Assembly: GCF_002088975.1 (NCBI RefSeq)
Contig: NZ_NCST01000077.1
Coordinates: 1 to 64,000 of the forward strand
Reading direction: 5' to 3'
Length of the DNA stretch: 64,000 nucleotides
From: Henriciella aquimarina
GTDB taxonomy: Bacteria > Pseudomonadota > Alphaproteobacteria > Caulobacterales > Hyphomonadaceae
Notes under the pieces: generated by a model
Seen by the model: only the letters and a program-made list of their open reading frames with translations
The model's database searches: none
What the model was told of the DNA's origin: nothing
Made by a program: the position numbers and the translations under genes
Shown here: piece by piece, positions 2,768 through 32,839 of the stretch
How the letters are laid out: each line of letters opens with the position of its first letter
Position numbering within the stretch: position 1 is the first letter of the stretch

Positions 2768-2876
2768 GTGGCGCCTTTCCGGCAGACCGTCCGACCGTAT
2801 GGCAAGCGCCGCTACGGTCCCGCTCCAATGAAGCGAAACGCTGGACGGGGCCAATCCCGTCGATAAAGTAACAGTC

Positions 2877-3884
2877 ATGATCCGGTTCACCCTGGCAGCT
2901 TTTCTGACCAGTCTTCTCCCGCTTGCGCCGGCCTCCGCCCAGCCGGAGGACTTGCGTGCGGCCATCGATGCCTATCTCGCCGAGGACTATCGCCACATCG
3001 AGATCATCGCCCGCCATGCCGAGGATGGCGTCCCGGAGGCGATTGCCGTGCTCGGACAGGCCTATCTCTATGGCTATGGCATCGAGATCGACCGCCCCCT
3101 GGGCGTCGCCCTGCTCGAACAGGCCGCCAGCCTCGGGGAGCGCTCTTCGCTCGTCCATCTCGGCCGCGTCTTCGAGTTCGGCGTCGAGGGTATTCCACCG
3201 GACCCGAAGGCCGCCGCGAAATGGTATGTCCAGGCCGCCCAGGGCGGGGACACTACCTCGGCACCAGCCGCCCTGAAGCGTCTGCCGGCCGACATCGTGA
3301 TCGCCGCCGGCGGGGCCGCCTGGGCCAGCGAACCCGCGCCGGACGCCCCTGCTGCCGGGGCTCCTGCCACTTCCTCCGAGACACCCATCTCGGCAGAGAA
3401 GGCGCCGTCCCCGGCCAGCGCGATTCTCGGCACTGCGACCGCGCCCCCGCCGCTCATCATGAATGACAAGACGCGCTTTCCCATTTTCGCCGACACCCAG
3501 CTCAGCCCGATCGGTGACGCCGCAGCGAGCTGCTTTGTCGTTCTGCGTCCGGAGATCGAGCGCCAGAAGCTGGCCCTCGAAAGCCTGATGACGCTGAACG
3601 GCGCCGGGGTGGAGGCCCGCTCCGGTTCCCGCTCATCGCGCTACAGCGAGCTCGCCAACACCGACCGCCAGCTCACCGCCATGAGCGAGGCCCTGCGCGC
3701 CAGCGAAAACCTCCTGGCCGATCCCGCTCGCAATGGCGGGCTCAATGCCGAGGCGGTGCGCCTGGCGCTGGTGCCCCACCGCGATGCCCTCGCCAACCGT
3801 CCGGACAGTGGCCCGGGGGCCACCTTTTGCGGCCAGCGCCTGATCCAGCTTATCGGCGAAAGCGCCGGCTGGCCCGAGCGCTAG
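2877..3884 (+). CDS. Secreted Sel1/TPR-like repeat protein
   Basis: 335 residues starting with a signal peptide (hydrophobic residues 3-16, then an ASA-type cleavage site near 19-21). Residues about 25-120 contain Sel1-like repeats, for example AVLGQAYLYGYGIEID and KWYVQAAQGGD. An Ala/Pro-rich linker follows, then a C-terminal part of about 150 residues that I do not recognise. Sel1 repeats normally mediate protein-protein contacts, so it is probably a periplasmic scaffold or adaptor. Confidence 0.7.
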   Translation: MIRFTLAAFLTSLLPLAPASAQPEDLRAAIDAYLAEDYRHIEIIARHAEDGVPEAIAVLGQAYLYGYGIEIDRPLGVALLEQAASLGERSSLVHLGRVFEFGVEGIPPDPKAAAKWYVQAAQGGDTTSAPAALKRLPADIVIAAGGAAWASEPAPDAPAAGAPATSSETPISAEKAPSPASAILGTATAPPPLIMNDKTRFPIFADTQLSPIGDAAASCFVVLRPEIERQKLALESLMTLNGAGVEARSGSRSSRYSELANTDRQLTAMSEALRASENLLADPARNGGLNAEAVRLALVPHRDALANRPDSGPGATFCGQRLIQLIGESAGWPER

Positions 3885-30788: not shown

Positions 30789-31064
30789 TCACCCGATCTT
30801 CCCCAGCGCGCCCGGCGCGATATTGATGGTCAGCCCGCCCTTGCCGTCGAACTGGACGCTGCCGGCCTCCGAGGCCGTGAAGATAGGCTCGCGCGGCAAG
30901 CCTTGAGCCACACGCGCTGCAATCGCCCGGACATCGAAGCTGCCTTCCAGCGAGACTGCGGACATATCGTCTGTCTCCACCATCATCAGGCGTGGGGCCT
31001 CGCCCTCCGAGCACTGGGCCTCAAGCGCCTCCATCAGGAGCGCTGTCACGTTTTCGATCTTCAT
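30789..31064 (-). CDS. Small hypothetical head-module protein
   Basis: 91 residues. It starts with ATG overlapping the MuF stop (ATGA at 31064-31061), so it is translated with MuF. Mixed alpha/beta, no known family. The longer open frame to 31181 lies inside the intein-coding end and is rejected. Confidence 0.55.
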   Translation of the reverse strand: MKIENVTALLMEALEAQCSEGEAPRLMMVETDDMSAVSLEGSFDVRAIAARVAQGLPREPIFTASEAGSVQFDGKGGLTINIAPGALGKIG

Positions 31065-32839
31065 AGGCTTCCTTCCACGTCGATGACCGGCTCGGAGACA
31101 CAGCCGCAATTCCCAACCCCGGTTGTTCCTGCTATGTACCAACCTGAAGCAGTTTGGAAATTGTACACATGCCCCTCCCAAGCCCGACTGAAGCAGACCT
31201 CGACTTTGCTATATCGAAGCTCGACGCCGGCGAAACTCTCAAGTCGATTGGCGCCATGGTCGGGTTCCATCCCGATTGCCTGTCCAAGCACCTCCGCTCC
31301 AGGCGCGGATATCGGATCAGCCGCCTCGGCCGCCGCCCTGCTAACAGCATACAGTACGATGAGGCGGAAGCGATCCGCTGTTACCTTGCCGGCGAGTCCG
31401 TCAAATCTCTCAGCGAGCGCCTTGGCCCCATCCGCAAGACCATCACCGAAATGCTTAAGCGCAATGGCATACCAATCAGAGGCGCAGCTGAGGCCGGGCG
31501 CATCGTTTGGGATCGCATGACGCCAGAAGAGCGATTCAAGCAAACGGAGGCAGCCCACGCGGCTCTGACGGGTACTAAGCGCCCAATGCGGCAGCGCCTC
31601 AAACGCGCCCACACGTTCGAAGTCAACGAGAGCCGCGTGGGCATGTTCGAAGACATGCTCTGCAACGCCCTGGCTGATGCAGGCTGTGAGTTCACGCCGC
31701 AAGCCGCCGTCGGCATCTACAACGTCGATATCCTCGTCAGCAATAATGTCGCCGTGGAAGTCTCCACTTCTCCCGTTGGTCGATACCGATCCGAGAATGG
31801 CCTCGCCCGCTGCAAATATCTCGCCGATCGAGGGCTCTCGCTGTTCTATGTACACGTCGCTTGCATGGAGGCGGCTGACGCTCGGCTGAGCGATATAGTC
31901 GCCGACATTCAGCGCCTCAGCCGGCTTCCAGCCGGTGTTCGTGAGAATCGGGTGGTTCGCTGTACAACTTACTCTTTCGCCCGCTTCCGTAATGAACTCG
32001 GTCAGATGGCCGCTGTGCCAACGGCGCCAGATTTTAAGTACATCGTCGTGGATGCTGACTGGCTGCCCTGACGGGAAGCAATAGATGGCCATACCCGGCT
32101 GATCGCCTGCGGGTTCACCCAGCTTGTAGATCCGCCCGTCTCGTGCCTTGTGCTTCGGCCGATAGCGGCGCTTCTGACTATGTCTCCAACGGTACGCTGT
32201 CACCCCGGCTTCCGACATGCGAATCCGGGTGAGTTCCCCATTGAGCTTCTGGGCCTGGTCGACGGCGATGGTGTTTGCGCGACGCCGCGCGATGGCGAGA
32301 CGGCTTGTCAGTTCCTTAGCGATCTCCCGGCGGGGCGTGCCCTCTGTGAACCCGCGCCAGACAATGTCCGCGATTTCCTTCTTCGTCTTCGCGTCCACGT
32401 CCTTAACCAGGTTGGCAATCTGGTTCTGGAAGGCCTTCACACGGGCCGCGTTTTCCTTACGGTCGATGAAGGGGAAGACATCAATGCCCGTCCCGGCCTT
32501 CACCGCATCGGCCCAGCGTTGCTCATGCCAACGGAGGGCGTCTCTCACCCAGCCGCGCACATCTGCCTCGACTGAGACAGTTGCACCGGCCGCTTGCGCC
32601 TCCGCTATCTTGATCGCCTCAGCAAGGTCGTCGCTTTCGTCGTCCTGCGTCAGCGTGGATATAGCCTGACCATAGGCCGGGCGAATCCGGTCGATGACCT
32701 GCCGTTCCCATGCTCGCACCGGACGGACCACGATGCGGTACAAGTCCCGCTTCAGCGTGTCCGTGATCTCGATGCCGCGAAGCACGCGGTTCTTTCGCAG
32801 GCCCTCCTGCCGGGCCAGCTCGGCTAAATCGAAACTCAT
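31061..32839 (-). CDS. MuF-like minor head protein containing an intein
   Basis: 592 residues translated. The N-extein (1-253) is an SPP1 gp7/Mu gpF-type minor head protein: AKTKKEIADIVWRGFTEGT and AIARRRANTIAVDQAQKLNG are its core, ending PGMAIY. The C-extein (578-592) resumes CGCVSEPVID, the conserved cysteine motif of MuF. Residues 254-577 are an intein. After splicing the head protein would be 268 residues. It follows the portal gene with a four-base overlap, as expected. Confidence 0.92.
   Translation of the reverse strand: MSFDLAELARQEGLRKNRVLRGIEITDTLKRDLYRIVVRPVRAWERQVIDRIRPAYGQAISTLTQDDESDDLAEAIKIAEAQAAGATVSVEADVRGWVRDALRWHEQRWADAVKAGTGIDVFPFIDRKENAARVKAFQNQIANLVKDVDAKTKKEIADIVWRGFTEGTPRREIAKELTSRLAIARRRANTIAVDQAQKLNGELTRIRMSEAGVTAYRWRHSQKRRYRPKHKARDGRIYKLGEPAGDQPGMAIYCFPSGQPVSIHDDVLKIWRRWHSGHLTEFITEAGERVSCTANHPILTNTGWKPAEALNVGDYIAQPSVSRLHASDVYIEQREPSIGEIFAAGEAILGSVSTNGRSGDFHGDIIADEDIDVVDADGGLRRELTACISQGVAEHVFEHAHAALVDFERVGAFEALPHWALSTRQSRVGCLRLLESLFWRHAIPNDAPGLSCASDWYAIALKHFGDGLADGAKALAERFDGLAGKVTADRFRLIVLYAVSRAAAEAADPISAPGAEVLGQAIGMEPDHGANRLESFAGVELRYSKVEVCFSRAWEGHVYNFQTASGWYIAGTTGVGNCGCVSEPVIDVEGSL
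31109..32080 (-). other. Intein-coding segment (324 residues)
   Basis: Block A begins at Cys254 (CFPSGQPVS). Block B is TANHPILT with the T-x-x-H pair T293/H296. Block F is HVYNFQTASGWYIA, and block G ends GVGN577, followed by extein Cys578. The penultimate residue is Gly rather than His, an allowed but less common variant. The central portion (about 310-545) has no LAGLIDADG or HNH motif in the sense frame. The opposite strand of the same DNA carries a full endonuclease gene. Confidence 0.88.
31169..32071 (+). CDS. Homing endonuclease nested antisense inside the intein
   Basis: 300 residues from ATG 31169 (GGA at 31156 upstream; TTG 31154 is an alternative start). Two helix-turn-helix units (SIGAMVGFHPDCLSKHL and VKSLSERLGPIRKTITEML) are followed by MTPEERFKQTEAAHAAL and a nuclease core: helix E161 (FEDML), then YNVDILV (D187) and VAVEVS (E197), a PD-(D/E)XK/Vsr-like arrangement as in DUF559-type homing enzymes. 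The gene lies entirely within the intein-coding bases, in exact codon register. A pure shadow ORF would not be expected to show this domain order. Confidence 0.82.
   Translation: MPLPSPTEADLDFAISKLDAGETLKSIGAMVGFHPDCLSKHLRSRRGYRISRLGRRPANSIQYDEAEAIRCYLAGESVKSLSERLGPIRKTITEMLKRNGIPIRGAAEAGRIVWDRMTPEERFKQTEAAHAALTGTKRPMRQRLKRAHTFEVNESRVGMFEDMLCNALADAGCEFTPQAAVGIYNVDILVSNNVAVEVSTSPVGRYRSENGLARCKYLADRGLSLFYVHVACMEAADARLSDIVADIQRLSRLPAGVRENRVVRCTTYSFARFRNELGQMAAVPTAPDFKYIVVDADWLP

Follow-up and report, generated by a model that had tools for sequence, protein, structure and literature searches.

Can an intein carry its homing endonuclease gene on the opposite DNA strand, within the very codons that encode the intein? 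The question is raised by a MuF minor head protein gene of Henriciella aquimarina, in which a 324-residue intein is overlapped by an antisense reading frame for a protein of 300 residues. The gene lies in the first 64,000 nucleotides of contig NZ_NCST01000077.1 (assembly GCF_002088975.1), and we refer to this whole stretch as the window. Our analysis makes it very likely that the locus is a mobile intein with its homing endonuclease gene antisense to it, codon on codon; splicing, expression, the cleavage site and homing are inferred. The sense strand contains the following features.

31061..32839, minus strand: MuF minor head protein gene with the intein, 592 aa (Phage_Mu_F E 2.3e-13; Intein_splicing E 8.7e-8; PHROG_15127 head protein E 8.4e-76)
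32081..32839, minus strand: N-extein of MuF, 253 aa, used as the extein query
31109..32080, minus strand: intein of 324 residues, Cys1 to Asn324, followed by the Cys of the C-extein; Hint fold with invariant C1, T40, H43 and N324
31928..31972, minus strand: Hint block B (SCTANHPILTNTGW), its His43 codon opposite antisense Val262 (sequence and alignment)
31748..31762, minus strand: sense motif DFHGD, whose conservation shadows that of the antisense nuclease strand VAVEV (both strands read codon by codon)
31148..31219, minus strand: Hint block F region, ending in GHVYNFQTA, its His304 codon CAT being the antisense start ATG (sequence)
31109..31132, minus strand: Hint block G (AGTTGVGN), last residue Asn324 (sequence)
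31061..31108, minus strand: C-extein of MuF, beginning Cys-Gly-Cys, plus the stop codon

In the numbering of the MuF protein the intein extends from Cys254 to Asn577 and is followed by Cys578. It also matches TIGR01445 (E 2.3e-5), and C1, T40, H43 and N324 are invariant across 22 intein relatives; the +1 residue is Cys. The Hint part of the sense model aligns with the Mtu RecA mini-intein (Z 12.9, rmsd 1.7, 107 residues aligned). The two Hint halves, residues 1-66 and 288-324, are modelled confidently, and the linker, residues 135-285, has a pLDDT of only 30-48. The splicing motifs and the fold are thus shown by computation to be intact, while the splicing activity itself is inferred. The linker is stop-free and is predicted to be largely unstructured. 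No nuclease is detectable in the sense frame, where Pfam returns Phage_Mu_F and Intein_splicing only. Together with the unfolded linker model, this result gives no sign of a sense-strand nuclease overlooked at first reading. The opposite strand of the same DNA contains the following features.

31169..32071, plus strand: antisense gene for a 300-aa protein with two helix-turn-helix (HTH) units and a Vsr-like nuclease core (homologs, selection, codon, fold and profile evidence)
31190..31306, plus strand: first HTH unit, residues 8-46 (helices 8-19, 24-31 and 35-46; bipartite transposase HTH domains, e.g. Tc3 1u78, align with residues 1-100 of the model)
31361..31462, plus strand: second HTH unit, residues 65-98 (helices 65-73, 78-85 and 89-98; HTH_7/HTH_23/HTH_28 in most members)
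31634..31936, plus strand: predicted Vsr/I-Bth0305I-like nuclease core, residues 156-256, with E161 (31649), D187 (31727) and E197 (31757) (structural and profile matches, below)
31946..32056, plus strand: C-terminal beta hairpin, residues 260-296, opposite Hint blocks A-B (strands 260-274 and 280-296)

The two reading frames are in exact codon register: sense intein residue 305-i faces antisense residue i, and codon positions 1/2/3 of the sense strand face positions 3/2/1 of the antisense strand. The antisense frame lies entirely within the intein limits, its start 60 bases and its stop 9 bases inside them. An alternative TTG start is found at 31154, 15 bases upstream of the ATG; the conserved start is the ATG at 31169.

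An AlphaFold2 model of the antisense protein, computed with 29 relatives, has a mean pLDDT of 87 and a pTM of 0.53, so the arrangement of its domains is less certain. The model shows two HTH units, a helical connector, an alpha-beta nuclease core and a C-terminal beta hairpin, in this order. VIA-align matches it to Vsr (1cw0, Z 11.1, 113 residues within 155-297), I-Bth0305I (3r3p, Z 9.7, 95 residues) and NGO0050 (3hrl, Z 9.6), and similarity to transposase HTH pairs, for instance that of Tc3 (Z 6.5), is seen in its N-terminal part. A Foldseek search with the model gave no match with E below 0.001. The structural assignment is based on the VIA-align Z-scores and on an independent profile match, not on Foldseek: the antisense family profile, using sequence alone, finds I-Bth0305I (3r3p) with an E of 4.8e-7. 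Both model and profile hence predict a fold of the Vsr/I-Bth0305I branch of the PD-(D/E)XK superfamily. No substitution is seen at Y184, N185, D187, A195, V196 or E197 among 29 aligned relatives, and E161 is nearly invariant. Of the EDxHD residues, E161 and D187 are retained. Some members of the family (e.g. L049, L065, L068-L070 and L073; GGNWHA, YSTHPS) also have a His after VAVE, as in the EDxHD motif. The window clade reads VAVEV-STSPVGRYRS, with no evident EDxHD His and a conserved Arg-aromatic instead. Catalysis by the window copy is uncertain for this reason.

Most of this layout had been proposed in an earlier note made without database searches. Its intein limits, the residues Cys254, Asn577 and Cys578, the antisense coordinates 31169-32071, the spacing of 60 and 9 bases and the exact register all held, as did its claim of a Hint intein with no in-frame LAGLIDADG or HNH nuclease, on the Pfam result and the unfolded linker. 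The two HTH units and a PD-(D/E)XK/Vsr-like core with D187 and E197 held as well, and the core is now refined to the Vsr/I-Bth0305I branch. The claim that the nuclease and HTH parts lie opposite the central intein section held in part, as the C-terminal third of the antisense protein overlaps the Hint-N domain too. The note had described a single case, whereas the arrangement is broader and belongs to a widespread family.

A tblastn search of 50,697 phage records with the antisense protein matched 125 records (best E 6e-30, 97% of the query), and the matches lie opposite genes annotated as head or MuF proteins. With the sense intein as the query fewer records were matched, none with more than 59% self-coverage and mostly through residues 1-109. 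The loci that we examined comprise 19 annotated phage regions, one further Acinetobacter region, and IMG/VR and bacterial loci. Roughly 40 distinct loci of phages or prophages have relatives in the same register inside inteins, for the most part in MuF genes and once in a dCMP deaminase gene, and both the exact register and the nesting within an intein were seen in all full-length intein-associated cases examined. The hosts include Klebsiella, Edwardsiella, Salmonella, Pseudomonas, Vibrio, Aggregatibacter, Idiomarinaceae, Helicobacter, Gordonia and Mycobacterium; a further member sits on a Chloroflexota plasmid, from Promineifilum, and matches an IMG/VR relative with an E of 6e-51. The antisense-intein arrangement recurs across four bacterial phyla and is conserved down to about 25% protein identity. 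The host gene is almost always MuF-like, with several insertion positions, each ending in Cys. The host gene of Virus Rctr197k (KX853510.1, 616-1968) encodes a dCMP deaminase (PF00383, E 5.1e-11) and contains both the intein and the antisense nuclease. The record labels this deaminase gene "head morphogenesis", a name that is probably derived from the intein.

In a phylum-wide sample of 398 genomes, full matches were found in only two, and the antisense family is therefore sparse in bacterial genomes; a single scan of genome contigs yielded one locus. Six loci from genomes of the same family (L028-L032 and L034) were left out of the counts, being weak, HTH-only or nuclease-only matches with ordinary antisense codons. 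Three of these, from same-genus genomes (L028, L030 and L034), are open reading frames of about 390-410 aa that match in the HTH part only, with ordinary codon use and no intein. One same-genus genome (G009) contains two intein loci with equal match scores, L026 and L033 on contigs C13 and C36, which are possibly two prophages or an assembly duplicate. Among the annotated records that we opened, a gene of the antisense family is listed as a gene only in Acinetobacter phages, in which it is free-standing.

The selection acting on the two frames was assessed by an overlap-aware substitution analysis, in which differences were counted by their effect in both frames and nine pairs were pooled. In the linker, dNN/dNS (omega_AS, the antisense constraint) is 0.34 (0.29-0.39) and dNN/dSN (omega_sense) is 0.58 (0.50-0.67). 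The corresponding values are 0.52 and 0.42 in the Hint-N overlap, and 0.85 and 0.37 in the N-extein control. The size of the method's bias is visible in the extein omega_AS of 0.85, as this frame should be free. Hence, the linker is conserved chiefly for the sake of the antisense protein, and the Hint-N part is under constraint in both frames. The most variable sense codon position is 3 in the exteins and 1 in the linker (33/7/16 in the linker of the window vs. locus L027), and in this same linker pair dNN is 0.064 against a dNS of 0.250. The antisense coding sequence is thus shown to be under purifying selection. The antisense nuclease strand VAVEV is encoded opposite the sense motif DFHGD, which would explain why the motif is conserved in these phage inteins.

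The codons TTA, CTA and TCA are completely absent from 40 nonredundant antisense genes, where about 365 would be expected from base composition, and this holds also for antisense genes of 34-42% GC. Each of these codons would be a stop in the intein, so that the sense frame, too, is kept open. The free-standing Acinetobacter homolog, a natural control for this avoidance, uses them for 12 of its 39 Leu and Ser codons.

The start signals of the antisense gene are likewise contained in the intein codons. Read on the opposite strand, the histidine codon of block F (GHVYN) is the antisense ATG; this histidine codon is CAT in 35 of 37 loci vs. 33% in exteins, and the block F Leu codon is CTC or CTT, giving GAG or AAG on the antisense strand, in 24 of 27 vs. 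35% in exteins. The mean Shine-Dalgarno duplex energy of the family is -5.69 kcal/mol, compared with -1.73 kcal/mol at 240 control ATGs opposite exteins (p 5e-11). In two loci, L065 and L073, the last 20 intein codons contain a perfect sigma-70-like TTGACA-17-TATAAT element, whose end lies 26 bases ahead of the ATG. When promoter scores were compared with those of synonymous recodings of the underlying sense codons, p<0.05 was reached at 11 of 35 loci (combined p 1.7e-11). This test was devised after the two perfect sites had been seen; without them 9 of 33 loci remain, and related loci are not independent. A simple scan of the window found no sigma-70 promoter or terminator, and both candidate signals of its own copy are weak:

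31156..31159, plus strand: weak Shine-Dalgarno-like GGAA ahead of the antisense ATG, within block F codons (duplex energy -3.3 kcal/mol)
31110..31138, plus strand: weak candidate promoter TTCCCA-17-TATGTA, where relatives have strong ones (p 0.136)

In the Klebsiella locus L005 (1-1370) and the Edwardsiella locus L006 (1-1321), a row of small genes on the opposite strand leads into MuF at its 3' end and is a possible source of antisense nuclease transcripts. Convergent neighbours were rejected as a general source of antisense transcription, since they occur only in the Klebsiella and Edwardsiella phages and are absent at the other annotated loci opened.

Intein-free MuF alleles, a search for which had been proposed in the earlier note, were found in Klebsiella and Salmonella phages. 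The MuF gene of Klebsiella JustaPhage lacks the intein, and the flanks share 91% and 89% identity with those of RCIP0054, whose 975-bp intein sits exactly between AAT and TGC relative to JustaPhage. Salmonella phages TS6, with an 816-bp intein, and St161, with none, likewise differ at exact junctions (about 88% identity). The insertion is thus shown to be exact and scarless, with near-identical genes existing with and without the intein. In the window's genus no intein-free allele was found: 3 of 29 genomes have this MuF, all three with the intein. Just upstream of MuF, JustaPhage also has a gene on the opposite strand that is annotated as an HNH endonuclease (L077, 115-735), perhaps another homing gene at the locus.

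A free-standing homolog of the antisense gene is present in three Acinetobacter phages (MZ712044.1, locus 2809-3702), tail-to-tail with an intact, intein-free MuF gene (LPMCKCRAK). The identity of the antisense proteins sometimes exceeds that of the host genes (0.87 vs. 0.62 for L049/L052 and 0.51 vs. 0.24 for L007/L016), and the nearest relative of L049 is not the same by extein as by antisense gene. Overall, antisense and extein identities correlate with an r of 0.85, and much of the antisense-intein history may therefore be vertical. The pattern fits occasional transfer on a mostly vertical background.

We propose the following mechanism. The two ends of the intein would form the Hint splicing domain on the sense strand, with the middle as a stop-free linker. 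The antisense strand of the same DNA would encode the protein with two DNA-binding HTH units and a Vsr/I-Bth0305I-type nuclease core, and the last 20 intein codons, read in reverse, would supply its start codon and Shine-Dalgarno sequence, plus a promoter in some relatives. The antisense protein would most likely recognise and cut the intein-free MuF cysteine-motif site, for which there are no cleavage data, and repair of the cut from an intein-bearing copy would spread the element. As a working order, by inference only, a free-standing nuclease beside the MuF site, as in the Acinetobacter phages, may have entered a mini-intein there in antisense, after which block F may have come to provide the start and the Shine-Dalgarno sequence. 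As phages of four phyla share the same two-sided arrangement, one DNA stretch appears to encode both the exit of the intein and its spread. Several points count against this homing reading: the weak Shine-Dalgarno sequence and promoter in the window, the missing His, the lack of an intein-free allele in the genus, the identity correlation, and the absence of expression, splicing and cleavage data.

Three other explanations have to be weighed. The antisense frame could be a by-product of GC-rich DNA read in exact register, with a conservation that merely mirrors the sense intein. Exact register is indeed the one in which long antisense frames arise by chance, the window has 60% GC there, and some antisense motifs do shadow sense ones (VxxC/VIRG opposite block B and LEIVHM opposite block F). 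However, linker substitutions favour antisense-silent changes, the frame is open at 34-42% GC with none of the three avoided codons, the antisense sequence folds and matches nucleases whereas the sense linker does neither, and a free-standing homolog exists. This explanation is all but excluded, and a chance antisense frame is ruled out by the homologs, the substitution pattern, the codon avoidance and the predicted fold. The three results that the earlier note had named as fatal to its claim do not apply: homologs are not confined to intein-complementary DNA, given the free-standing gene in the Acinetobacter phages; selection is not for the sense strand only, as the linker is more constrained in the antisense frame; and no missed sense-strand nuclease was found.

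Alternatively, the antisense gene could be real and merely hosted by the intein, encoding a DNA-binding regulator or a nuclease with another phage role, e.g. in competition or exclusion. One third of the protein consists of the two HTH units, some clades lack the active-site His, and free-standing nucleases that exclude rival phages are known. We consider such a role very unlikely, because the invariance of Y184, N185, D187 and E197, and nearly of E161, argues for a retained catalytic site, and because nesting in an intein, a free-standing copy beside an uninterrupted site and precise presence/absence alleles fit homing best. It is less improbable, though still unlikely, that the family homes and the window clade has lost catalysis, its copy now being a decaying nuclease inherited vertically. 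The missing His, the weak Shine-Dalgarno sequence and promoter and the lack of an intein-free allele in the genus speak for decay. Against it, the frame is intact, the window clade is under purifying antisense selection by the dNN and dNS of its linker relative to L027, and the related Klebsiella/Edwardsiella clade, likewise without a clear His there, shows recent presence/absence polymorphism. The homing reading, which the earlier note had advanced, is hence supported computationally, with cleavage and homing themselves inferred.

The antisense homing intein has parts in common with several known systems. Canonical homing inteins, in which a Hint domain is combined with an in-frame LAGLIDADG or HNH nuclease (e.g. 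PI-SceI and PI-PfuI), share with it the Hint domain and a nuclease encoded by the central part of the intein DNA; in both, the insertion site is a conserved motif and alleles without the intein exist. In contrast to them, the nuclease of the window lies outside the intein polypeptide, as a separate, Vsr-like protein encoded on the opposite strand in exact register, and by the Pfam result and the unfolded linker the defining property of a canonical homing intein, a nuclease in the intein's own frame, is lacking. The I-Bth0305I or Vsr-like (EDxHD) homing endonucleases belong to the same catalytic domain family as the antisense protein (E 4.8e-7; Z 9.7), but are encoded by free-standing or intron-associated genes that have no overlap with intein coding sequence. 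Vsr-like homing nucleases also occur beside fractured split-intein genes. Nuclear rDNA group I introns carry antisense His-Cys homing endonuclease genes (PMC9548176), similarly opposite a host gene and inside a self-splicing element; there, the element is a ribozyme without a protein frame to keep open, the nuclease family is another one and there is no codon-on-codon double coding. The ShiLan domain in actinophage methylases, an out-of-frame HNH domain on the same strand with no splicing domain detected (PMC11855218), is also a hidden homing nuclease that overlaps a stop-free host frame in a phage gene, but it differs in its strand, shifted frame, HNH type and lack of a detected splicing domain. 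An antisense nuclease in an intein was not found in the open-access literature searched, which did not cover a relevant 2025 preprint on non-canonical actinophage inteins. Antisense homing genes are thus already known from group I introns, and the intein version is apparently undescribed within the literature searched.

A bolder reading is likely and is not excluded by the evidence. The family may represent a class of two-stranded selfish element, in which blocks F and G, read in reverse, give the nuclease its ribosome binding site and start and, in part of the family, its promoter. As intein and nuclease share codons and blocks F and G supply the signals, splicing chemistry and spread would therefore evolve under one shared sequence.

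If the antisense homing intein is real, mobile inteins can carry the enzyme that spreads them in antisense, where annotation pipelines discard genes by rule, and such inteins may be mistaken for mini-inteins without a nuclease. The family would be a clean case of long-term codon-on-codon double coding, with a free-standing homolog as its natural control, and would allow a test of the extent to which one DNA can accommodate two unrelated folds, the Hint beta strands and a Vsr-like nuclease. It would also offer a route by which a free-standing nuclease can merge with an intein.
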